NCBI GenBank assembly: GCA_015056575.1
Contig: SVGA01000008.1
Coordinates: 102,412 to 166,411, forward strand
Origin: Butyrivibrio sp.
Lineage (GTDB): Bacteria > Bacillota > Clostridia > Lachnospirales > Lachnospiraceae
Reading direction: 5' to 3'
Length of the DNA stretch: 64,000 nucleotides
The translations under genes and the position numbers were made by a program. This document shows positions 47,581 to 61,795 of the stretch, in pieces. The first letter of the stretch is position 1. Every line of letters starts with the position of its first letter. Under the pieces are notes generated by a model. It was not told the DNA's origin, ran no database searches, and saw nothing but the letters and a program-made list of their open reading frames with translations.

Positions 47581-47613
47581 TTTGTGTAGAGCACTTAGCA
47601 ATTGGAGGCATAC

Positions 47614-48024
47614 ATGAATCTAATCGATTATCAGGACAGCAGACCTATCTACGAACAGATCGTGGAAAATTTCAAAATGCAGATGTACAAAGGAATCTTG
47701 CAGGAGGGGGATCAGATGCCCTCGGTCAGGAGCCTGGCCGTGGAACTTTCCACCAATCCCAATACGGTTCAGAAAGCCTATACGGAGCTTGAACGACAGG
47801 GTTTCATCTACACTGTCAAGGGCAGAGGTAACTTTGTCAAAGGCAACGAACTTCTTGTAGAGGACAAGAAGAACGAACTTATAGCCAGGATTGTAGAGCT
47901 CTTTAAGGAAGCTGATGAGATAGGTCTTTCAATCGACGAACTGGTAGAGGAAATCAGGAGTCGCATTCAGCAGTTTTCCGGCTCGGGAAACCCGGGTGAG
48001 GGCAAGAGGGGAGAAAAGGCATGA
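47614..48024 (+). CDS. GntR family transcriptional regulator, YtrA subfamily
   Basis: DYQDSRPIYEQIVENFKMQMYKGILQEGDQMPSVRSLAVELSTNPNTVQKAYTELERQGFIYTVKGRGNFV; short C-terminus. ATG at 47614 after GGAGG. Confidence 0.92.
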   Translation: MNLIDYQDSRPIYEQIVENFKMQMYKGILQEGDQMPSVRSLAVELSTNPNTVQKAYTELERQGFIYTVKGRGNFVKGNELLVEDKKNELIARIVELFKEADEIGLSIDELVEEIRSRIQQFSGSGNPGEGKRGEKA

Positions 48025-48926
48025 TTGAATTACTGGATCTTGAAAAATCATTTGACGACATTAAAGCTGTCAATCGTGTTTCGCTTAACATCCTTGACGG
48101 CGAAGTATTCGGACTGGTGGGAACCAACGGTGCAGGTAAGAGTACAATTCTAAGGATCATTTCGGGAGTAATAAGGCCGGATGCAGGAATTGTTCTTGTG
48201 GACAAAAGACCTGTCTACGATAATCCCGATGTTAAGAAGGATATATTCTATATTTCCGATGAACAGTATTTCCTTCCCAACAGTACACCGGCTGAAATGG
48301 CCAATTTCTATGAGAATGTGTACAGAAATTTTGATAAGCTCAGATTTCACAAGATGTGCACAGGTTTTGGGCTGGATACAGGAAGAAGAATCAGCACATT
48401 TTCAAAGGGTATGAAGAAGCAGCTGTCAGTTCTTCTCGGCGTGTGCGCGGGAACCAAATATCTTTTGTGCGATGAGACCTTTGACGGACTGGACCCTGTT
48501 ATGAGGCAGGCTGTTAAAAGCATCTTCGCGGCTGAGATGTCAGACAGGGGACTGACACCCATTATTGCATCCCATAACTTAAGAGAACTGGAAGACATCT
48601 GCGACCACATCGGTCTTCTTCATCAGGGCGGAGTAATCCTCTCTGAGGATATAGAGGATATGAAGATCAGAATGCAGAAGGTACAGTGCGTATTCAACAG
48701 CAAGGAAGACGAGGAGAAAGCCCTTGAGGGCCTGAATATCCTTGTTCATGAGACAAGAGGAAGACTTCACACCATCACAATAAGAGGCGAGAGAGAAGAA
48801 GTAGAAGCCGCCTTTAAGCGTGGTAACCCTTTATTCTTCGAGGTTCTTGCACTTACTCTTGAAGAGATCTTTATCAGTGAAACGGAGGTAGTTGGGTATG
48901 ACATCCGCAAATTTGTCCTTGGGTGA
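48021..48926 (+). CDS. ABC transporter ATP-binding protein (YtrB-type)
   Basis: GLVGTNGAGKSTILRIISGVIRPDAG Walker A; FSKGMKKQLSVLLGVCAGTKYLLCDETFDGLD signature and Walker B. Confidence 0.92.
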   Translation: MIELLDLEKSFDDIKAVNRVSLNILDGEVFGLVGTNGAGKSTILRIISGVIRPDAGIVLVDKRPVYDNPDVKKDIFYISDEQYFLPNSTPAEMANFYENVYRNFDKLRFHKMCTGFGLDTGRRISTFSKGMKKQLSVLLGVCAGTKYLLCDETFDGLDPVMRQAVKSIFAAEMSDRGLTPIIASHNLRELEDICDHIGLLHQGGVILSEDIEDMKIRMQKVQCVFNSKEDEEKALEGLNILVHETRGRLHTITIRGEREEVEAAFKRGNPLFFEVLALTLEEIFISETEVVGYDIRKFVLG

Positions 48927-51060
48927 TAAGATTAAAAATCACAGAACGTACATCAACAGAACTCTGTGGACTTATATGATCGCAGTGCCCGTACTTGCAG
49001 CATATATGATCCTGGGAGTTATCATGATGGTGTCAAGATCCATCAATTATGCTGCTGTTTACAATCAGAGTGCAGAGGTCCTCAGAATTGAGAAGCTTAA
49101 GGCGGTAACGAGAATTCTTGGCATGGAACAGCTGGGCTGGATCATCGTCATCGGAATTGCAGTTATGTTTGCGATCCAGAGTTTCTCCTACGTCTTCAGC
49201 CAGAGTCAGATGGACTTCTATTACAGCCAGCCAACCACCAGAAGAGGCAGGATATACAGAAATTACAGAAATTCCATGAGCACCTTCATGATCATGTATG
49301 TGGGGCTCGAAATCATAGCTGTTATCATTGCAGCAGCCATGGGCGCTGTTAACGGCTACTCGCTTTTGATGATGCTTATTGAGACTGTCAGGGTATTTGT
49401 TCTGTTCTTTACTTTTTATAACATAACCTTCCTGGCGGTTATGCTAAGCGGAACACTTCCCATAGCGATAATACTCACGGGATGCTTCACATTTGTATCC
49501 CTGATCATTTCAGGCCTTATTGATTTCTACAAGGAAATTTTCTATGCTACCTACAGTAACCTGGCAGCCACCAATGTTCACCTGGCTCCGTTTTTTGACA
49601 GGGTACATTGCAATAGCCTTATATATCAGTACATTGAAAATAACAGTGATTACTTCGGAATGAGTAATATTAAAGACCTTTTGGGTATCACATTTCCCGA
49701 TGACATGGATATGCTCATTACCGGTATCATTGCCCTTGTATTTGCTGTTATTTTCGCAAGGATTCGTAAGACCGAGTGGACAGGAAAGAGCATTGCGCTC
49801 AGGCCTTTCAGATGGATCGTCAAGATAATCGTGTGCTTCATAGCAGGACTTGGAAGCGGTCTTATCGTATACTTCATATACAACAGCGTATGGAATCAGA
49901 AGCTGTATACAATGATGTGCGTTATCATGCTCCTTGCAACCTTTCTAACGGGATGTATCGTAGAGGTTGTACTTGAAGGCAACATCAGAAGATTCTTCAA
50001 GGGAATTGCTCAGACAGTAATGGCTATGGCTTTTGTACTGCTGACCTTTGTGATAATGAGGGGCGATCTTCTTGGCTATGACAGCTATGTACCTGCAAAG
50101 GACAAGATCGCGAGCTGTGCGATCGTAGACGGAGTATATGATTACAATTTTTATTCCTATTTCCTGAACTATAACGATCTTTCCGATGCTAATATGAAGA
50201 TCACGGATATCGACAGTTTCCTTACCGTTACAAGAGCCGGTATGATTAACAGAAAAGCTGAGTCCAGGCTCGAAGGGGAGGACAGATATGATTCCCTCGG
50301 CTATGGGATGACCGTTTTATACCGATTAAAGAGCGGAAGAGAAGTTTACAGATACATAACTGTTCCTTACAATGATGTAGATGATGCTCTTGCAAAGATC
50401 ATTGACAGTGATGAGTACAAGACCGGACATTTCCCTGTGTTTAATGATGACAACTTAAGAGAAGCGGACGGAACAGGCAATTCTCACGAGCTTAGATTCT
50501 CTGCACTCGGAGAGAGTAAGGACACCAGGAACTTTGATTATTCCGAGTTCAGCGATGCTTTGAGAAAAGACATACTGGAGCATTACAGCTTTGAATATGC
50601 CAAGAACAACTTTGCTATAGGTACCGTTGAATATCACAATGAAGGTAACCGGTATGTGGGTCTGGATATCAATATTTACGACAATTATACCTATACTTTA
50701 GACCTTTTAAAGAAGTATGATATCTATATTGATTACAAACTGGATCTGGCTGATATTAAGGAAATAAGAGTGATGAATTATTATCCCGGCCATGATCTTG
50801 AGACTGAATCGCTAAATGATATTGACGGTGATGTAAGCAGTAAGGAAATGGTTTATACTGATGAAGAGCAAATCGCCAGGATCCTTGAGTCAAGCGTTTG
50901 CGGCGATTATTATAATCAGTGGCAGGACTTTGACGAACTTTACAACGGCCAGTACAATATCGAGATCATAACAAATTCCGGAAGCAGAAATTCGTCACCG
51001 GTATATTACACATTCTATAAGGGAAAGGTTCCTGATTTTGTTAAAGAGGATACAAATTAA
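48898..51060 (+). CDS. Multi-pass ABC exporter permease with large C-terminal soluble region (DUF6449-like)
   Basis: Many TM segments; overlaps the ATPase gene by ~29 nt. GGAGG precedes the ATG at 48898. Confidence 0.8.
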   Translation: MTSANLSLGDKIKNHRTYINRTLWTYMIAVPVLAAYMILGVIMMVSRSINYAAVYNQSAEVLRIEKLKAVTRILGMEQLGWIIVIGIAVMFAIQSFSYVFSQSQMDFYYSQPTTRRGRIYRNYRNSMSTFMIMYVGLEIIAVIIAAAMGAVNGYSLLMMLIETVRVFVLFFTFYNITFLAVMLSGTLPIAIILTGCFTFVSLIISGLIDFYKEIFYATYSNLAATNVHLAPFFDRVHCNSLIYQYIENNSDYFGMSNIKDLLGITFPDDMDMLITGIIALVFAVIFARIRKTEWTGKSIALRPFRWIVKIIVCFIAGLGSGLIVYFIYNSVWNQKLYTMMCVIMLLATFLTGCIVEVVLEGNIRRFFKGIAQTVMAMAFVLLTFVIMRGDLLGYDSYVPAKDKIASCAIVDGVYDYNFYSYFLNYNDLSDANMKITDIDSFLTVTRAGMINRKAESRLEGEDRYDSLGYGMTVLYRLKSGREVYRYITVPYNDVDDALAKIIDSDEYKTGHFPVFNDDNLREADGTGNSHELRFSALGESKDTRNFDYSEFSDALRKDILEHYSFEYAKNNFAIGTVEYHNEGNRYVGLDINIYDNYTYTLDLLKKYDIYIDYKLDLADIKEIRVMNYYPGHDLETESLNDIDGDVSSKEMVYTDEEQIARILESSVCGDYYNQWQDFDELYNGQYNIEIITNSGSRNSSPVYYTFYKGKVPDFVKEDTN

Positions 51061-51940
51061 AACAATTAAAAATCTTTCGGCGAACCAGAGGAAGAGCCTG
51101 TTGACCTGGCTCTTCCTGGCACCGTCCCTTCTGGGTGTGCTTTTGTTTTATGTGGCTCCCTTTTTTGTGGTTATCTACTATTCACTGATCAACAATCCGA
51201 TCCAGAAAAGATTTGTGGGTATTACCAATTTCATAAATGTGTGGAACAATGAAGCATTCAAAATGGCGGGGCGCAACTCCCTCTTATTCTCGTTCATAGC
51301 TGTCCCGCTTGCAGTGCTTCTTTCTCTGTTTCTGGCGGCGGTGATGGAATCAAGGATTCCCGGAAAAAGTTATTTCCGTACCTTCTTTCTAAGTCCCCTG
51401 ATGGTTCCCACGGCATCCATCGTTCTTATCTGGCAGGTCCTGTTTCACTACAACGGTCTGGTAAACAATGTACTTATAAAATTCGGATTTATCAAGATCG
51501 ACTGGCTGAAATCAGATTATGCGCCGGTGGTCATTGTGATACTTTTCCTTTGGAAGAATCTGGGCTATAACATGATCCTTTTCATGGCGGCCTTATCCAG
51601 TATTCCCAAGGACCTTATGGAAGTGGCTGCTTTGGAGCACGCCAACAAATTCCAGATTTTCTGGTATGTAAAACTAAGATTCATGTCATCTACAGTGCTG
51701 TTTGTGACCATAATGTCCGTCATCAACTCCTTTAAAGTATTCAGGGAGGTTTATCTGATGACGGGAGACTATCCCTATAACAGCCTGTATATGCTGCAGC
51801 ATTTCATGAACAATACCTTTGCTTCCCTGGATTATCAGAAGCTTTCCGCTGCAGCCATTATCATGTTTATCGTGGTAACCTTCCTTGTTCTTATTATGTT
51901 CAGGGTTGAGAATTTCTATGGAAAAGATGTAGAGGGGTGA
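51038..51940 (+). CDS. Carbohydrate ABC transporter permease, MalF-like
   Basis: LTWLFLAPSLLGVLLFYVAPFFVVIYYSL; EAA-type loop SIPKDLMEVAALEHANKFQIFWYVKLRFM. Start codon uncertain. Confidence 0.88.
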   Translation: MLKRIQIKTIKNLSANQRKSLLTWLFLAPSLLGVLLFYVAPFFVVIYYSLINNPIQKRFVGITNFINVWNNEAFKMAGRNSLLFSFIAVPLAVLLSLFLAAVMESRIPGKSYFRTFFLSPLMVPTASIVLIWQVLFHYNGLVNNVLIKFGFIKIDWLKSDYAPVVIVILFLWKNLGYNMILFMAALSSIPKDLMEVAALEHANKFQIFWYVKLRFMSSTVLFVTIMSVINSFKVFREVYLMTGDYPYNSLYMLQHFMNNTFASLDYQKLSAAAIIMFIVVTFLVLIMFRVENFYGKDVEG

Positions 51941-51942
51941 GT

Positions 51943-52875
51943 ATGGACATTAGAGCAGGAGATGACATACTCCTCCGAAGAAAAAAGAAAAAGAAAATAA
52001 TAAGCGATACGAAGACTATACTTGTAACAGCTGCAGCGGTGGTATTTGCGGTACTGTTTCTGGCACCCATAATACTTACCTTCACAAATTCCTTTATGTC
52101 TGCTTCGGAGATTTCCGCCAATTACGGAAGCATCTTTGAAAAAACAGACAAGGGAGCCAAGGTTTTTGTATCAAAGACGGTAAACCTAAAGTTCATTCCG
52201 GATATGGTAAGCTTTACCCAGTACTATACGGTACTATTAAAGAGCCCGGAATACCTTCTTAAATTCTGGAACTCGATTGTCTACGTGGTGCCAATAGTTG
52301 TGGTTCAGCTGGTGATAGCGGTGCTTGCGGCCTACGGCTTTTCCAGATATGATGGGAAAATAAAAAGAGCTATCTTTTTTGCATATATCATTATAATGCT
52401 GATGCCTTATCAGGTAACGCTGGTTCCCAACTTCCTTGTTTCAAGGGCCTTAGGCATCTACGATACTGTATGGGCAATCCTGCTTCCCGGATTCTTTTCG
52501 CCTTTTGCGGTATATCTTTTGACAAAATTCATGAAGAGGATTCCCACGGAGGTGGTGGAGGCAGCATCAATAGACGGAGCCAACGAGTGGATGATATTCT
52601 CAAGGATCAACCTGCCTCTTGTAAAAGGCGGAATAGCGTCCATTGCGATCCTTATATTTTTTGACTACTGGAATATGGTAGAGCAGCCGCTGATCCTTTT
52701 GTCGGATTCGGATATGCATCCGCTTTCGGTTTTCCTGTCCAGGATAAACACAGGGGAGATAAGCCTGGCATTTGCAGTAGCTGTAATATATCTGATCCCG
52801 CCGCTTCTTATATTCCTGTACGGCGAGGATTATCTGGTTGAGGGTATCTCATACCAGGGTGGAATTAAAGGTTAA
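51943..52875 (+). CDS. Carbohydrate ABC transporter permease, MalG-like
   Basis: IILTFTNSFMSASEI; EAA loop RIPTEVVEAASIDGANEWMIFSRINLPLVKGGIASIAILIFFDYWN. Confidence 0.9.
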   Translation: MDIRAGDDILLRRKKKKKIISDTKTILVTAAAVVFAVLFLAPIILTFTNSFMSASEISANYGSIFEKTDKGAKVFVSKTVNLKFIPDMVSFTQYYTVLLKSPEYLLKFWNSIVYVVPIVVVQLVIAVLAAYGFSRYDGKIKRAIFFAYIIIMLMPYQVTLVPNFLVSRALGIYDTVWAILLPGFFSPFAVYLLTKFMKRIPTEVVEAASIDGANEWMIFSRINLPLVKGGIASIAILIFFDYWNMVEQPLILLSDSDMHPLSVFLSRINTGEISLAFAVAVIYLIPPLLIFLYGEDYLVEGISYQGGIKG

Positions 52876-52892
52876 TTAAGGGAGAGAGAAAC

Positions 52893-54410
52893 ATGTCGGA
52901 ATTAATGGTTAACGATGAGAACACGCAGGTTGTGGAAAAAGAGTCTTCAGGGGGAGATAAGAAGCCGGCAAACAGGAAGGATATGGTCAAAAACGTGGCT
53001 ATAGGCTTTCTGTCTGTGATGCTTATACTTACTTTCTTTTCCAATACCATCATGAATTATTCACTGCCTCAGGTGGCGACCCAGCAGATCATGGGCGGAT
53101 CCATAAGCCCGCAGATAAGGGGAACGGGTACAGTTGAGGCGGACGATCCTTACAATGTAACCGTAAGCGAGACCAGAAAGATCTCGGCGGTTGCGGTTAA
53201 GGAGGGCACTCACGTGGAAATCGGTGATGTCATCTATTATCTTGAGGACAAAGAATCCACAGAGCTATCAGACGCCAGAGAGAAGCTTGATACCCTGGAG
53301 CTTGCTTATGAGCAGTCTCTTTTCTCCGGCAATGTGCCCAATAATGTTATCACCAATGTGAGGGCCGGCCGCAATACCTCCTACGACACTTATCAGGCAG
53401 AGCTTGCGGATGCCACCAGCAGGTACGACAACGCTCTTAACGAGGACAACGCCGTACAGGCCCAGATAGATTATCTTACAGGTAAAAAGAGCTATGACAC
53501 CGCCGGGATCGGATATGATGCCTTAACTCCGGATTATCAGCTGGCTCTGGGCAATCTTACCGAGGAACAGAGAGCAGAGCTTGAGAAAGACAAGTCTCAG
53601 CTTGGAACCTACGGATCGCAGCAGGGACTTTCCTATGACCAGAAATTGTCTCTTCTCCAGCAGGAAAAGGCCAGGACCGCGGCGGCTTTAAAGGAAGCCG
53701 AGACAGCCAAAGAGAAGCTTCTTACCAGCATAAACACAGAGATTGCTCTCTGTCAGCAAAGAGATAATATAGCCAAGCAAAGAGAGAAGATTGCCAAGCT
53801 TGAAGCAGAGTCTGTGGGAGCATCGATCAAGGCTCCCGTTGCAGGGATCATTTCAAGCCTTTCCAAGGTTGCGGGAGAGTCCACCAATGCAGATGAGACC
53901 CTGGCTGTGATCCAGGTTGACGGCAAGGACATGGCGGTAAGCTTTTCTGTTACAAATGCTCAGGCACAGAAACTTAAAGTCGGAGATCACGCAAGACCTC
54001 AGAATGAGTGGATGTACAGCGAGGATTTCAAAGCAACTCTTACTTCGATAAAGAATGACAAGTCGGATCCTTCCAACAAGAAGCTTCTTACCTTTAAGAT
54101 AGAGAGCACGGAAGTTGCTCCCGGGCAGAAAATAAACCTGGCCATCGGCGAGAGAAGCGTAGATTACGACCTTGTTGTTCCCAACAGTGCAATTAAGACA
54201 GACAGTAACGGTAAGTTTATTCTGGTTGTAACAAGTAAGTCCAGTCCTCTCGGTAACAGATATATGGTTTCGAGAGTGGATGTTACAGTGACGGCGCAGG
54301 ACGACAACTATTCCGCAATTTCAGCCGCAGTTAACGGAGACGAATATGTGGTTACCACATCCACAGCAATGATAAAGGCAGGAGATCAGGTAAGGCTGGC
54401 TAATCAGTAA
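52893..54410 (+). CDS. HlyD/RND-type membrane fusion (periplasmic adaptor) protein
   Basis: N-terminal TM; RGTGTVEADDPYNVTVSETRKISAVAVKEGTHVEIGDVIYYLED lipoyl half, long coiled coil, ASIKAPVAGIISSLSKVAGESTNADETLAVIQ second half. Confidence 0.85.
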   Translation: MSELMVNDENTQVVEKESSGGDKKPANRKDMVKNVAIGFLSVMLILTFFSNTIMNYSLPQVATQQIMGGSISPQIRGTGTVEADDPYNVTVSETRKISAVAVKEGTHVEIGDVIYYLEDKESTELSDAREKLDTLELAYEQSLFSGNVPNNVITNVRAGRNTSYDTYQAELADATSRYDNALNEDNAVQAQIDYLTGKKSYDTAGIGYDALTPDYQLALGNLTEEQRAELEKDKSQLGTYGSQQGLSYDQKLSLLQQEKARTAAALKEAETAKEKLLTSINTEIALCQQRDNIAKQREKIAKLEAESVGASIKAPVAGIISSLSKVAGESTNADETLAVIQVDGKDMAVSFSVTNAQAQKLKVGDHARPQNEWMYSEDFKATLTSIKNDKSDPSNKKLLTFKIESTEVAPGQKINLAIGERSVDYDLVVPNSAIKTDSNGKFILVVTSKSSPLGNRYMVSRVDVTVTAQDDNYSAISAAVNGDEYVVTTSTAMIKAGDQVRLANQ

Positions 54411-55570
54411 TGAAGATAAGTTTTGAACCCAACAAAGAACTAAAAAAATATAAGAAACAGTTTATCCTGGTGGGAATTTGCGCAGTACTCCTTATTGTTG
54501 CGCTGATACTTCAGATGATCTCACTGTCAATTATTGGCAAGCTTCCTGATGAGCTTATGGCGGACAGATGGTCCGGCAACAGGCGAATGGCTCAGATCAG
54601 CCTTTATGTTACGGAAGACAGAGCTGTTGATGAGAATGAGATGAAACGCTTTGATTACCAGCTCAAGAAGAAACTCACCGATGAAGGTGTTTCAGATGAT
54701 GACGATGATATAAGCAATCTTTATACCATGTGCTACAGCGCTCAGGGAACTGTGGATATCAGTTTTGAGAACAGAACTGCAGAGAATGTTGCCGCAATAG
54801 GTGTAGGGGGTGAGTTTTTTCTTTTCCATCCATTTACTCTGGTTTCCGGATCTTACTTCTTTGCGGATGACATCATGAAGGATCATATAGTTGTGGATGA
54901 GGACATGGCCTGGCAGCTGTTCGGATCATCGGATATCATCGGGCAGAGCGTGACCATAGGAGGAGTTCCCCATTACATCTCCGGAGTCATAAAGCGTGAG
55001 GATGGAAGGATGCAGAAGGCGGCAGGTCTTGATAGGAGCTATGTGTATCTGTCCTATGACAGCCTGTCCAAATTCGGAACCATACTCAGCGGAAGGACCG
55101 GTCAGGGACCGGGCGCCGAGGACGGGACCCAGCAGGAAGTCGGCGGAATAAACTGCGTACAGGTAGTTTGTCCCAACCCCGTAGACGGATCTGCTGCGCT
55201 TATTTGCAGGGAGTGTCTTGGAATAGATGACGACGGAGTATCCGTAATTGATAATACAGACAGATTTTCTTTTCTGGCTCTTTTGAAGGTGCTGCGTCAG
55301 ACCGGCACCAGGAGCATGTGGGGCAAAGCCATTTATTACCCCTACTGGGAAAATATAGCAAGAGGCTGGGAGGATTCGCTGGCAGCTCTTTTGCTGGGAA
55401 GAATGATCTGTATCATAGCTGTTGTGCTTATCGCAGCAGTTAATATAGTAAACGCCTACAGAAACAAGAAATGGACAGTAAGAGGCGTGGCAAGATATAT
55501 AGCAGATAAAAAGTATGACTTCGAAGCCAAAAGACGGAAGAAGCTTGATGAAGGAGAGGAGACATTATGA
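54410..55570 (+). CDS. MacB periplasmic-core-like protein with one N-terminal and one C-terminal TM helix
   Basis: FTLVSGSYFFADDIMKDHIVVDEDMAWQLFGSSDIIGQSVTIGGVPHYISGVIKREDG is MacB_PCD-like; only two TM segments visible. Confidence 0.65.
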   Translation: MKISFEPNKELKKYKKQFILVGICAVLLIVALILQMISLSIIGKLPDELMADRWSGNRRMAQISLYVTEDRAVDENEMKRFDYQLKKKLTDEGVSDDDDDISNLYTMCYSAQGTVDISFENRTAENVAAIGVGGEFFLFHPFTLVSGSYFFADDIMKDHIVVDEDMAWQLFGSSDIIGQSVTIGGVPHYISGVIKREDGRMQKAAGLDRSYVYLSYDSLSKFGTILSGRTGQGPGAEDGTQQEVGGINCVQVVCPNPVDGSAALICRECLGIDDDGVSVIDNTDRFSFLALLKVLRQTGTRSMWGKAIYYPYWENIARGWEDSLAALLLGRMICIIAVVLIAAVNIVNAYRNKKWTVRGVARYIADKKYDFEAKRRKKLDEGEETL

Positions 55571-58071
55571 GGAAAAGGAATGGAATATTAAGGAAAGGAA
55601 TAGCGATCGTACTTGAGACAGTTCTTATTGCCGGAACCATTGCGGGCTGCGGTAAGAGCAAGAGCGATGACAACAGTTTTATCGATCAGGCGACCAAAGG
55701 CTCCAAGGACTACGTATTTAAAGCAGAAAAGGTTGAGGGCCTTCCCGAGGCTGATTACAATTCCCTTAGTAAGGTAGGTGACAGGATCTATACTGCAACC
55801 TACGGATATAGCGGATATTTTGACGTATATTCTTTTAATACGGATGGAAGTGATGTGCAGTCACTCAGGTTCGCCCAGAAGGACAATGAGAGCTATGGCA
55901 GCTGGTCCTTCGACCCGGAAGGCAATATGTACTGCATTCAATATGTGTATGACTGGAGCGATATGGAAGACGGAGATGCAATCCTCTATGAAACCGAGGA
56001 CGGAGAAGCTGCTACTGTCGCTGAGCCACAGACAACACAGACTGAGGAGACCACACAGGAAGATGCTCCTGAAGCAGAAGCAGCTGAAGGGACTGAGGCA
56101 GAGACAGAAACAGAGGAGGATGCGGATTCCAAGAAGGTTGCAGATACCGATCCTGAGACTCCCGCTGAAGGTGAGGAACCGGAGGGCAATCTTGCCGAAA
56201 CTGACGGTGACAAGAGATATATCAAGAAATTTGATAAGACAGGTAAAGAGGTATTCAGCATTGACCTTGCTAAATACAATTCTCCCGATGAGGATGATTA
56301 CTATGTATACAGCTTGCTCTATACCAAGGACTACGGGATTCTCATTTCTACAACCCACGGCATTGAAACCGTTGATGAGAACAGCCTTACGATCAATACT
56401 CTTGTTGATATTACCGATAAGTCCAGCGAATTCTATGAGAGAAACATAAACCTGTATGAAGGTGCTAATGGCAAGTACTTTGTTTCCTCATGGGGAGACA
56501 ACGGAATCGAATTCAGAACCTTTGACCCGGCTTCAAAGAAATTCGGTGAGATTTCAAGTGCCTTCAAGAACTATAACGAATACTCATTCTTCCCCGGAGA
56601 AGGTTATGACATCTATGTATCCCAGAATGACGGATTCTACGGATATGATGCGGCTTCTGATACAACTGTTAAGATCCTTGATTACATGGATTCCGACCTT
56701 GGTATCAACTTCTCAACAAGCAGTGCAGTGGCTATAAGCCCCGATGAATTTATAGCAAACATCCCTGATGAGGAATACAACTACACACTTTACAAACTCA
56801 CCAAGATTCCTCCGGAGCAGGTTAAGGACAAAACCGTAATTACCCTTGCGGGAACTTATATCGACTATGATGTAAGAAGAAAGGCAAGCACCTTTAACCA
56901 GGAGAATGATAAGTACAGGATCAAGATCATTGACTATTCATCACTTAATTCCGACGAAGACTGGAATGCCGGCAGAACTCAGATGAATCTTGATATTGTT
57001 TCCGGTAATACTCCTGATATCATGGTCTTTGATTCCCAGGATTCACTTAACTCCTATATTAATAAGGGACTGTTTGCGGATCTTAATCCATTCATCCAGA
57101 ATGACCCTGTTCTTAAGGATGAGAAGTTTGTAGACAACGTTTTGTCTGCGTTCACTGTAAATGGCAAGCTTTATCAGCTCCCCGAGAGTTTCTATATCGA
57201 GAGTGTTGCCACCAAGAGCAAGTACCTTGAGGGCAAGAATAGCCTTACCATCAAGGATTGTACCGATATTATCGACAGAGCGGGAGTTGATTATGCTATG
57301 TCCTTCGGACTTTCCCCGAGGGAGCTGATGCTCACCAACGGACTTGCTTCTTCAGGCAGGAACTATATAGACTGGGAAAAGAAATCCTGCAATTTTGACA
57401 GTGACGAATTCATCGAGTTTTTGGAGTTTGTAAATAAATTCCCGGTGGAGATAAAAGAGAGTTTTTGGGATTCCTACAAGAACACATGCTACAGAGACGG
57501 TACGGCTGTCTTCTCAAACGCCTATATTTACAGCTTCAAGTCCTACAAGAGACTGGAGGCAGGCGAATTCGGCGAGCCTATTACCATGGTTGGCTATCCC
57601 AACAATCTGGGGGTTAACTGCTCAATGATCTGTGCCAACAGCAGATTTACCATCAGTTCTCAGTCCAAGAATGCTGAAGGCGCATGGCAGTTTGTAAGAC
57701 AGTTCTTCCTGCCGGAAGTCCAGGACAAGATTGAGTCTAATTTCCCTATTCTTCAGAGCAGCTTTGATAAGATGGGAGAGAAGTCGATGGAAAGGGACTA
57801 TTACATTGACGAGGATGGCAAGAAGCAGTATGAGGATGACATCTACTACCTTGGAGATACAGAGATAGTAATTGATCCTCTTACACAGGATGAGCTTAAG
57901 AAGGTCAAGGACTTCATCTACAGTGTTGAAAATGTAGCAGATTACAACCTCAGCGTTTATAACATCATTAACGAAGAGGTATCTGCATACTTCAGCGGTC
58001 AGAAGACGGCAAAAGAGGTAGCGCAGATAATCCAGAGCAGAGTATCCATCTACGTTAACGAGAACAGCTGA
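55567..58071 (+). CDS. Large lipoprotein: N-terminal propeller-like region plus extracellular solute-binding domain
   Basis: Lipobox TIAGCGKSKS; repeated sheet-like segments in the first half; VITLAGTYIDYDVRRKASTFNQENDKYRIKIIDYSS...LDIVSGNTPDIMVFDS is typical of family-1 SBPs. Confidence 0.85.
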   Translation: MRKRNGILRKGIAIVLETVLIAGTIAGCGKSKSDDNSFIDQATKGSKDYVFKAEKVEGLPEADYNSLSKVGDRIYTATYGYSGYFDVYSFNTDGSDVQSLRFAQKDNESYGSWSFDPEGNMYCIQYVYDWSDMEDGDAILYETEDGEAATVAEPQTTQTEETTQEDAPEAEAAEGTEAETETEEDADSKKVADTDPETPAEGEEPEGNLAETDGDKRYIKKFDKTGKEVFSIDLAKYNSPDEDDYYVYSLLYTKDYGILISTTHGIETVDENSLTINTLVDITDKSSEFYERNINLYEGANGKYFVSSWGDNGIEFRTFDPASKKFGEISSAFKNYNEYSFFPGEGYDIYVSQNDGFYGYDAASDTTVKILDYMDSDLGINFSTSSAVAISPDEFIANIPDEEYNYTLYKLTKIPPEQVKDKTVITLAGTYIDYDVRRKASTFNQENDKYRIKIIDYSSLNSDEDWNAGRTQMNLDIVSGNTPDIMVFDSQDSLNSYINKGLFADLNPFIQNDPVLKDEKFVDNVLSAFTVNGKLYQLPESFYIESVATKSKYLEGKNSLTIKDCTDIIDRAGVDYAMSFGLSPRELMLTNGLASSGRNYIDWEKKSCNFDSDEFIEFLEFVNKFPVEIKESFWDSYKNTCYRDGTAVFSNAYIYSFKSYKRLEAGEFGEPITMVGYPNNLGVNCSMICANSRFTISSQSKNAEGAWQFVRQFFLPEVQDKIESNFPILQSSFDKMGEKSMERDYYIDEDGKKQYEDDIYYLGDTEIVIDPLTQDELKKVKDFIYSVENVADYNLSVYNIINEEVSAYFSGQKTAKEVAQIIQSRVSIYVNENS

Positions 58072-58339: not shown

Positions 58340-61300
58340 ATGAGAAAGTTAAAGTTGTGGCAAAGGGGGCTGGCATCTGCAGGACTTAGCCTGTCTATTT
58401 TTTTGAGCTCGTTCGGTAACGTTACCGGAGTTATGGCAGCTGAAGTGGCAGATGACACTACTGCAATTGAAACGCAGGAGGAAGAGATCGCATCAGACGA
58501 AAGTGGCGAGGGAAGCGCTAAGGGTGTTGAAAGCCAGGAAAAGACTGATGCTGACAACACCAAAGAAAGTAATGATAAGGTAGAAGAAGAAAAGGAAGAG
58601 GAAGTTGAAAAGGCCGAAAACGATTCCGTAGAAGAGACTGAAAACGATTCCGTAGAAGAGACTGAAAACGATTCCGAAGATGAGGCAGAAGAAGACCTGG
58701 AAGAAGATCTTACTTCTCCTGTTAATGCGAAGGCTGTTACTGTTACTGCAGCAGAAGCAAAGACTCTTTCTACACATAAGGCTTCAAGAGAGCAGAAGGC
58801 AGCTGACAATGCAGCTGTTACAAGAGATAACATACATGACGGTGCAATTCTCCAGGCATTTTGCTGGAGCTTTAATACAATAGCAGAGAACATGGCTGAC
58901 ATAGCCGAAGCAGGATATACAGCTGTTCAGACATCACCGATAAATGAATGTCTTGATACAGATCCGGGCAAGAATCTTCACGGTCCTGACGGAATGTGGT
59001 ATTACCACTATCAGCCCACCGATTGGGTCATCGGAAATTATCAGCTTGGAACCAGAGATGAATTCAAGCACATGTGTGATGTAGCTGATGAGTACGGTGT
59101 CGCAATCATTGTAGATATTCTTCCCAACCACACAACACCTACACTTGGTAAGGTATCACAGGATCTTATCGATGCTGTTGGCGGAACAGAGAACCTCTAT
59201 CACACAACAGGTATGACAGGCGGTGGGTATACAGACAGACTTGAGCTTACCTATTATGAGATGGGAGGACTTCCTGATGTAGATACCGAGAACATCAGCT
59301 TCCAGGAGTATTTCTACGAGTTCTTAAAGGACTGCGTATATCTTGGTGCAGACGGTTTCAGAATGGATACTGCCAAGCACATTTCACTTCCGGATGATCC
59401 TGTTCCCTCATCCTACACAGATACAGACAGAAATACATTCTATCCTCATATGAGGGATGCTCTTAACCAGTATTCAACTGAGGTTGGATCAAAGAGCTAT
59501 GATGAACTGTTTGTGTACGGAGAAGTTCTCCAGGGAACAAATGACAGACTTGCGGGATACCAGGAGTACATCGGCGGAACCACTGCAAGCAACTATGGGT
59601 CAAGTCTTCGTTCAGCTCTTGCCAGCGGCAATCTTTCAGTAAACAAGATCAGCGATTACCAGATCTATGATGAGACAATAAATGGAAGAACATATACTGC
59701 AGATCCCGAGAAGCTTATTACCTGGGTTGAGTCTCATGATAACTACATGAATGATGGTGAGAGCAGCTGGAAGTCCATAAGCGACGATCAGATCATTCTT
59801 GGATGGTCCTTTATCGGAGCAAGAAAAGCAGGAACACCTCTGTTCTTCAGCAGACCCAATAACAGCTCTGTAGACAATCCTTACGGAGACAACCTCATCG
59901 GTGAGGCCGGAAGCGACATCTATAAGGCTCCTGAAGTTAAGGCTGTTAACAATTTCCGCAGACAGATGCTCGATGCTGATGAGTACATCACAAATCCCGG
60001 CGGAAACATTCAGACCGTTATGGTTGAAAGAAAGGGCGAAGATGTACAGGGTGCTGTAATCATCAACAGCTCACTTTCAAGAACAACCATCAATGCAGAG
60101 ACTGTTCTCGAAGATGGAACATATTCCGATATGGTTGAGGGAAGCGATGATATCTTCCTTGTAAAGGACGGAATTATCTATGGAAGCCTTGATGGAAGAT
60201 CTGTAGCAGTTCTTTCCGAGAAGAATGATGGAACAGGTACAGTAGTTTCTTTCTACAATGCAGATAACTGGGACAATGTAACAGCAAGAGTAGACGGAGA
60301 AGCTCTTTCTACAGTAAACGATAATGACGGATGGTACTGGGTAACAGTACTTGATGATGAGTTTGAGATCACATTTGAAAACAGTGACGCAAGCAAGGTT
60401 TCACCTGCATATAAGGTTTCTCCTTCGACAGGAACTTTTGCGGCACTTGGCTCTGATGAGCTTTACTTCTCCAAGAAAGAGGCAGAGGAAGCTATTGGAA
60501 TCTTCACATACCCTGTTTACTTCTTTGGAACTGAAGGCTGGCAGATCGTTAATGCATACGGATGGCTTTCAGACGGAACACAGATCTTTGGCGGATGGCC
60601 CGGAAGTGCTGCAGTAAACGAAGGCGAAGGCTGGTGGCGCGCTGATGTAAAGACCAAGGGTGAACCTGATTCCTTCAACGTAATCTTCAATAACGGTGAC
60701 GGAATACAGACTGTAAATATCGAGGGAATCACTCCGGAGAGCAAAGATATCTATTTTGCAGTAGATGCAGAGAAGTCAAGCGGACAGCTTGTTGTTGACA
60801 GATATACAAGCAAAGAGGATGCAGAGAAGGCTCTTGGTGTATCAGGCAGCTTCACAACAGCATATTTTTATAACACAGAGGGCTGGGAGAAGGTATGCGC
60901 ATACACCTGGGGTGCAGCATCTTTAGGAGAATGGCCCGGAACAGAGATGACTCAAGAGGAAGATGGCTGGTACAAGATTGTTGTTCCCGCCGGTGCAAGC
61001 GAAGATCTCAACATCATCTTCAACAACGGCAATAACGGTAAGCAGACCAATGATATGAAGATCACCAACATGAAGTACAGATTCTTCCTTCATAACGGAC
61101 TGGCTTATCAGCAGTACGGCTCCAAGAAGGACGCTCTTGCAGCAATTGCCGAGGCCGGAGAAGTAACATATACAACTGTTTATTTCTATAACGAGAAAGC
61201 CGAAGAAGAATCCTGGCAGAATGTTGCCCTTTATGTCTACGGTGGAGCAAACGGAGAGTACAACAACCTTATCGGTGGATGGCCCGGAACTACCATGGTT

Positions 61301-61795
61301 CGCGAAGAGGGCACAAACTGGTACAGCGCCGAGGTTCCCACAGCAGCTATTGAGTCAGGTACTCTTACCTACATCTTCAATAACAACGGCGGTGGTGAGC
61401 AGCTTTCAGACAACAAAAATGTAACAGTTGAAAAGAGCTATTTCACAACCAGCAGCACAGATGGCTTTGGAAGCAAAGAAGAAGTTCTTACATTCCTTGG
61501 CATCACAACAGAAGATCCTACAGAACCTACAGATCCTACAAATCCTCAGGATCCTACAGATCCCGGTGAGGTCGAGCCTACAGATCCCACAGAACCTACA
61601 GATCCAGGCGAAGTCGTAGAGCCTGAGGATCCCACAAATCCTACAGATCCTGACGAACCCGATCAGCCTGCAGAGCCCGACAAGCCTTCCTATGATCCTA
61701 CACCTATCATCAACATCATTGTACCTGTTGTTAAGGTGGTTAAGAAGGTTGTTGCAGTGGTTACAAGAATCTTAAGAAGACTGTTCTGGTGGTAA
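58340..61795 (+). CDS. Secreted GH13 alpha-amylase with acidic N-terminal repeats, three CBM26-like modules and Pro/Thr-rich linker
   Basis: Signal peptide; VAIIVDILPNHTT, GADGFRMDTAKHISL, FVYGEVLQG, TWVESHDNYMND GH13 motifs; three repeats of YFYNTEGWEKVCAYTWGAASLGEWPGTEM...NIIFNNGNNGKQT type; DPTEPTDPTNPQDPT linker. Confidence 0.93.
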   Translation: MRKLKLWQRGLASAGLSLSIFLSSFGNVTGVMAAEVADDTTAIETQEEEIASDESGEGSAKGVESQEKTDADNTKESNDKVEEEKEEEVEKAENDSVEETENDSVEETENDSEDEAEEDLEEDLTSPVNAKAVTVTAAEAKTLSTHKASREQKAADNAAVTRDNIHDGAILQAFCWSFNTIAENMADIAEAGYTAVQTSPINECLDTDPGKNLHGPDGMWYYHYQPTDWVIGNYQLGTRDEFKHMCDVADEYGVAIIVDILPNHTTPTLGKVSQDLIDAVGGTENLYHTTGMTGGGYTDRLELTYYEMGGLPDVDTENISFQEYFYEFLKDCVYLGADGFRMDTAKHISLPDDPVPSSYTDTDRNTFYPHMRDALNQYSTEVGSKSYDELFVYGEVLQGTNDRLAGYQEYIGGTTASNYGSSLRSALASGNLSVNKISDYQIYDETINGRTYTADPEKLITWVESHDNYMNDGESSWKSISDDQIILGWSFIGARKAGTPLFFSRPNNSSVDNPYGDNLIGEAGSDIYKAPEVKAVNNFRRQMLDADEYITNPGGNIQTVMVERKGEDVQGAVIINSSLSRTTINAETVLEDGTYSDMVEGSDDIFLVKDGIIYGSLDGRSVAVLSEKNDGTGTVVSFYNADNWDNVTARVDGEALSTVNDNDGWYWVTVLDDEFEITFENSDASKVSPAYKVSPSTGTFAALGSDELYFSKKEAEEAIGIFTYPVYFFGTEGWQIVNAYGWLSDGTQIFGGWPGSAAVNEGEGWWRADVKTKGEPDSFNVIFNNGDGIQTVNIEGITPESKDIYFAVDAEKSSGQLVVDRYTSKEDAEKALGVSGSFTTAYFYNTEGWEKVCAYTWGAASLGEWPGTEMTQEEDGWYKIVVPAGASEDLNIIFNNGNNGKQTNDMKITNMKYRFFLHNGLAYQQYGSKKDALAAIAEAGEVTYTTVYFYNEKAEEESWQNVALYVYGGANGEYNNLIGGWPGTTMVREEGTNWYSAEVPTAAIESGTLTYIFNNNGGGEQLSDNKNVTVEKSYFTTSSTDGFGSKEEVLTFLGITTEDPTEPTDPTNPQDPTDPGEVEPTDPTEPTDPGEVVEPEDPTNPTDPDEPDQPAEPDKPSYDPTPIINIIVPVVKVVKKVVAVVTRILRRLFWW
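58616..58677 (+). repeat. 24-bp tandem repeat in the acidic region of the amylase gene (2.6 copies)
   Basis: GAAAACGATTCCGTAGAAGAGACT at 58616-58639 and 58640-58663, then gaaaacgattccga. Confidence 0.9.

Follow-up and report, generated by a model that had tools for sequence, protein, structure and literature searches.

HlyD/MacA-type adaptors are known as components of exporters. In MacAB-TolC, the β-barrel and membrane-proximal domains of the adaptor are seated on MacB, with the membrane-proximal domains touching Porter and Sabre, and the adaptor hairpins make no contact with MacB (PMC5985334). In a monoderm, Spr0693 forms a hexameric nanotube that is docked on Spr0694-0695 (PMC5768738), and the role of such adaptors in bacteria that lack an outer membrane has been left open by a review. 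Here, we describe a locus of Butyrivibrio sp. that, like MacAB-TolC, YknXYZ, and Spr0693-0694-0695, encodes a MacA-fold adaptor beside a protein with a MacB periplasmic core after TM1. It departs from the MacAB-type pumps in lacking a MacB-type NBD, in having a MacB-like protein with two TMs where those have four (in the clade of this locus), and in being joined to importer permeases and solute-binding proteins (SBPs). The locus also resembles CUT1 importers (MalFGK2 or MsmEFGK-like) in its MalF and MalG permeases with EAA loops, its lipoprotein SBP, and an orphan MsmX-type ATPase in the genome, but it differs from them by the added HlyD adaptor and MacB_PCD protein and by an SBP with an extra N-terminal region of ~400 residues. 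Type VII ABC permeases such as FtsX, BceB, and YtrF likewise carry an extracellular domain of related fold after TM1, but they cross the membrane at least four times and are served by a type VII ATPase of their own. Each part of the locus belongs to a known family and the new element is the combination, for which we found no paper in a literature search that left out most subscription journals.

The window, i.e., the whole stretch of 64,000 nucleotides that was analysed, contains a forward-strand run of MalF-MalG-HlyD-PCD-SBP at 51038-58071 with spacings of -4, +17, -1, and -4 nt. The MalF-type sugar permease (51038..51940, 300 aa; BPD_transp_1 54.6 bits, UgpA-like) has a degenerate EAA loop, EVAALEHANKFQIFWYVKL, and the MalG-type permease (51937..52875, 312 aa; BPD_transp_1 51.8 bits, GlcU/UgpE-like) a canonical one, EAASIDGANEWMIFSRINL; two BPD_transp_1 permeases with EAA loops together with an SBP are a CUT1 feature. 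Downstream of the MalG end at 52875 lie the HlyD/MacA-type adaptor (52893..54410, 505 aa) and the PCD protein (54410..55570, 386 aa), whose genes overlap by 1 nt. An earlier note on this DNA had given the coordinates of both frames exactly. Its placement of the PCD gene directly behind an HlyD-type adaptor, inside a sugar-importer operon, is confirmed by this overlap, by MalF-MalG upstream, and by the SBP lipoprotein downstream. The SBP gene (55567..58071, 834 aa) overlaps the PCD gene by 4 nt and encodes, as read from Pfam and the sequence, a lipobox (IAGC), the extra ~400-residue N-terminal region, and a C-terminal SBP_bac_1 domain. The SBPs of these loci are mostly 740-880 aa long, and their ~400-residue N-terminal region is of unassigned fold; it looks β-propeller-like by eye, and one of 21 members matches PQQ_2.

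The run is followed by a gene for an α-amylase with three CBM26 starch-binding stretches (58340..61795, forward strand, 1151 aa; Alpha-amylase 55.8 bits, CBM26 147.1 bits), and from this co-encoded enzyme we infer maltodextrin as the importer substrate. The amylase contains a proline-rich linker, and its C-terminal segment is hydrophobic with basic and aromatic residues at the end, which points to anchoring at the surface. On the other side, domain matches identify a GntR-type regulator, an ABC ATPase, and a 9-TM DUF6449-containing membrane protein (47602..51060, forward strand). This module lies directly upstream of MalF and overlaps its start in the window and in many same-genus loci; it is not beside MalF in the other genera examined, nor in several same-genus loci, and this patchy occurrence places it outside the conserved unit.

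The claim of the earlier note that the product of 54410..55570 has MacB_PCD-like sequence holds at the level of both sequence and predicted structure. The protein scores 45.7 bits against the MacB_PCD Pfam model (cut-off 27), which is matched by all 18 aligned members, and a profile retrieves MacB chains from the PDB at an E value of 2.8e-10. The top Foldseek matches of the AF2 model (pLDDT 80) are MacB (5gko, 5lil, 3ftj, 5nik) and YknZ (5f9q), with E values of 2e-11 to 6e-10; TM-scores by target length are 0.60-0.66 against the isolated periplasmic domains 3ftj, 5f9q, and 9qgy_M, and ytrEF (9o9x), LolCDE, and HrtBA are also among the matches. The model runs from a TM1 helix (15-43) through a β-α-β unit, a Sabre-like insertion, and a second β-α-β unit to a 40-residue C-terminal helix (312-351) that contains the second TM and is followed by a basic cytoplasmic tail. 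The core (60-281) comprises both Porter and Sabre, a split that is read from the order of the predicted elements.

In MacB, the loop between TM2 and TM3 bears the coupling helix to the NBD. The four-TM core with this loop is absent from the PCD protein according to both hydropathy and the AF2 model, as the earlier note had proposed: hydropathy gives two TM segments, 19-37 and 326-344, and the charge bias fits an N-in/C-in topology. The structure and topology analyses thus yielded neither a four-TM FtsX fold nor dissimilarity to MacB_PCD. Of the 18 aligned members, 17 likewise have two segments, and the last has an extra weak peak beside the C-terminal segment; TM counts throughout are hydropathy counts, to which the AF2 model is added for the window protein. 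By an entropy score that we computed on modest alignments, conservation is 0.65 in the core, 0.68 in a YPYWENxARGxED stretch just outside the second TM, and 0.39 in the cytoplasmic tail, which varies from about 20 to 67 aa; with a tail so poorly conserved, nothing points to a conserved coupling element. The closest named relatives are proteins of Butyrivibrio sp. FCS014 and RUI079 (89-90% identity), and a searched plasmid collection returned weak MacB-like matches only. Two other readings of the family were weighed. Going by the placement of extracellular motifs, the two-TM form may have arisen by loss of the TM2-TM3 hairpin, the C-terminal TM corresponding to TM4, but hhalign of the C-terminal parts shows no homology. 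A 685-aa frame in G704 that looked like an HlyD-PCD fusion is actually a PCD protein with long Ser/Asp/Asn-rich insertions; the 684-aa PCD protein of L171 (7088-9142) has such insertions in its extracellular part.

Is the association of an adaptor and a PCD protein with MalG a peculiarity of this genome? A search of other genomes finds it over many genera. The adaptor gene lies just upstream of the two-TM PCD gene in 40 of 40 loci, and the order MalF-MalG-HlyD-PCD is kept in all 37 two-TM loci with enough contig; both counts include the window, omit one repeated genome, and describe a sample of loci, not a census. The conserved order in other genomes excludes a chance arrangement. The two-TM loci are spread over many genera and belong to several families. 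A protein search through 150 family genomes finds strong relatives in 13 other genomes, and profile searches add more from further families of this class and a single one from a different class. Within the genus of the window the gene is present in 54 of 61 genomes, and in 33 of 35 Butyrivibrio genomes of good quality. A search with MalG in 120 family genomes gives ten matches at 63-100% identity, all of them at PCD loci, before the next at 42% and below. On a MalG tree built by a quick method, the two-TM loci form one group (SH-aLRT 95) that adjoins loci with multi-TM PCD proteins. Pairwise distances among the four proteins correlate at 0.90-0.95 in a mirror-tree comparison without background control, a value that is also compatible with plain operon co-inheritance. 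Judged from sequence, the adaptor and the PCD protein are probably accessory parts of the sugar importer.

The same parts are mostly retained in related importers, whose MalG proteins are 32-51% identical, and the MacB-like protein is then a multi-TM one. Among 30 loci examined from MalG, the profile detects an adaptor directly downstream of MalG in 28; of the other two, one has a rearranged order (L129) and one a short adaptor-like protein. No adaptor accompanies three MalG paralogs that lie in the same loci and are far more distant. Three loci have permuted gene orders with the same genes clustered (L172, L174, and L129, which reads SBP-x-HlyD-PCD-MalF-MalG-MalK), and clustering that is kept despite a shuffled order is a stronger sign of shared function than a fixed order. 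By hydropathy peaks, the gene position of the PCD protein is occupied in related importers by MacB_PCD proteins with more TM segments; the two-TM form is the state of a clade, and the "missing" core was probably lost or replaced by another form. In L122, L123, L128, and L133, a search behind the adaptor yielded no PCD gene, which indicates that not every member of the wider group needs the PCD protein. The loci L117-L136 form a wider Lachnospiraceae importer group (MalG 32-44% identical) with HlyD and mostly multi-TM MacB_PCD-like proteins; the latter show a recurrent extracellular motif near IPxxWSDFxFW, and several of these loci adjoin two-component systems.

Could the pair instead report on the importer? 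MacB homologs of the BceAB type signal with their kinases, and the adaptor and PCD protein might act as a flux or occupancy sensor of the SBP/permease state that signals inward via the GntR-type regulator, encoded upstream in many Butyrivibrio loci, or, in relatives, via the two-component genes that adjoin several of them. However, the type and presence of the regulator vary between loci while MalFG-HlyD-PCD is constant, and the variable C-terminal tail of the PCD protein (0.39, about 20-67 aa) presents no conserved signalling output. We therefore regard a sensor as unlikely and retain the accessory role in import.

The adaptor shows all features of the HlyD/MacA family: a TM, a lipoyl/barrel-sandwich domain, a hairpin, a β domain, and a membrane-proximal domain. 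It scores 42.6 bits with HlyD_3 (cut-off 22.2) and 86.7 bits with RND_mfp, below the 94.9 cut-off of that model. Its AF2 model has one N-terminal TM, lipoyl and β domains, hairpin helices at 164-219 and 224-307, and a membrane-proximal-like C-terminal β region, and matches AcrA, MacA, EmrA, and CusB in Foldseek. Conservation is 0.77 in the TM, where a near-invariant LTFFSNTIMN stretch is located, 0.84 in the juxtamembrane segment, and 0.42 in the hairpin; such values at the membrane would be unexpected for a plain anchor. The hairpin region of full-length adaptors ranges from 122 to 487 residues. In the 789-aa adaptor of L048 (10139-12508), the hairpin region takes up about 487 residues and could extend over tens of nanometres. 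At the other end are mini adaptors of 206-253 aa without a hairpin (L119 8888-9607, L120 7185-7841, L123 7860-8621, and L128 9140-9760, the last recognised by eye and alignment, not by profile), which sit behind MalG and retain both the TM and the membrane-proximal-like C-terminal part.

These data also bear on the idea of a tether to the cell wall, or of an FtsX-like control of wall enzymes, in which the adaptor would bind peptidoglycan and position the importer or the surface amylase with no duct involved. Purified YknX does bind peptidoglycan (PMC5985334), and a hairpin region that varies so widely in length and can be lost entirely would be compatible with such a role. Conservation is, however, highest at the membrane and not in the hairpin, and a domain search found no known wall-binding domain in the adaptor or the PCD protein, so we regard a tether, like a sensor, as unlikely.

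What, then, powers the system? No dedicated MacB/LolD-type ATPase is fused to the PCD protein or consistently adjacent to it in the loci examined. The gene right after PCD in L085 and L086 encodes an ATPase of the UgpC/MalK type (475 and 504 bits with the UgpC model; OB_MalK), and the gene after MalG in L129 an ATPase with OB_MalK and TOBE_2, also of MalK type. ATPases near L180 and L182 have TOBE_2 without OB_MalK, lie beside other genes, and were not counted as importer ATPases. The genome of the window encodes an orphan MsmX-type ATPase elsewhere (G000 C10:45380-46480), flanked by unrelated genes and 59% identical to the L086 ATPase; an unlinked gene is what is expected for a multitask MsmX arrangement (PMC7658222). 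The importer ATPase is thus probably of MalK/MsmX type. The statement in the earlier note that the MacB-type protein occurs without its ATPase is correct for an ATPase of the MacB type, and does not extend to the system, which is probably not ATPase-free. A distinct MacAB-like device for efflux or secretion that only happens to lie in the operon and borrows a MacB- or Ytr-type ATPase in trans is very unlikely: although the folds are those of MacA and MacB, and an ABC ATPase with a DUF6449-containing membrane protein is encoded upstream in the window, the two-TM protein lacks the TM2-TM3 loop, a MacB/LolD-type ATPase gene is not consistently associated, the ATPases directly after the cluster are of MalK type, and the upstream Ytr-like ATPase/permease, missing there in other genera and several same-genus loci, was rejected as a general motor of the PCD protein.

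We propose that MalF-MalG, the adaptor, the two-TM PCD protein, the lipoprotein SBP, and the MsmX/MalK-type ATPase encoded elsewhere would form one sugar-import system and may assemble physically. The PCD protein would be a docking domain of the MacB type, held in the membrane by two stalks, and would lack a motor because it makes no contact with an NBD. On its Porter/Sabre face it may hold the membrane-proximal domains of the adaptor, as MacB holds MacA, and the conserved TM and juxtamembrane stretch of the adaptor could pack against MalFG, the PCD stalks, or both. An adaptor ring with long hairpins might then sit over the mouth of the permease as a collar or short duct, between membrane and wall, which would keep the large SBP and captured maltodextrins released by the amylase near the permease, the PCD protein serving as seat and the adaptor as collar. 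Taken on its own, this collar or duct detail is less likely than not. That a MacA-like ring on a motor-less MacB-type domain is an extracellular duct feeding oligosaccharides to MalFG, in a new class of ATP-driven sugar importer of monoderm Clostridia with an efflux architecture run for import, is conceivable yet rather doubtful, and the hairpin-less adaptors and the loci in which no PCD gene was found indicate that a duct is not the sole function across the wider group. The suggestion of the earlier note that the protein is a scaffold rather than a pump fares well in part: an accessory or scaffold role is the best supported, with an association conserved across many genera, the scaffold proper being a candidate reading beside a sensor or a tether.

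In conclusion, conserved, near-core importer loci that encode both an adaptor and a MacB docking domain would demonstrate the use of an efflux-type architecture for uptake, and a natural motor-less MacB domain would allow docking to be separated from mechanotransmission. Such a system could explain how polysaccharide fragments are handed over from the surface to the transporter in the fibre- and starch-degrading Lachnospiraceae of gut and rumen.
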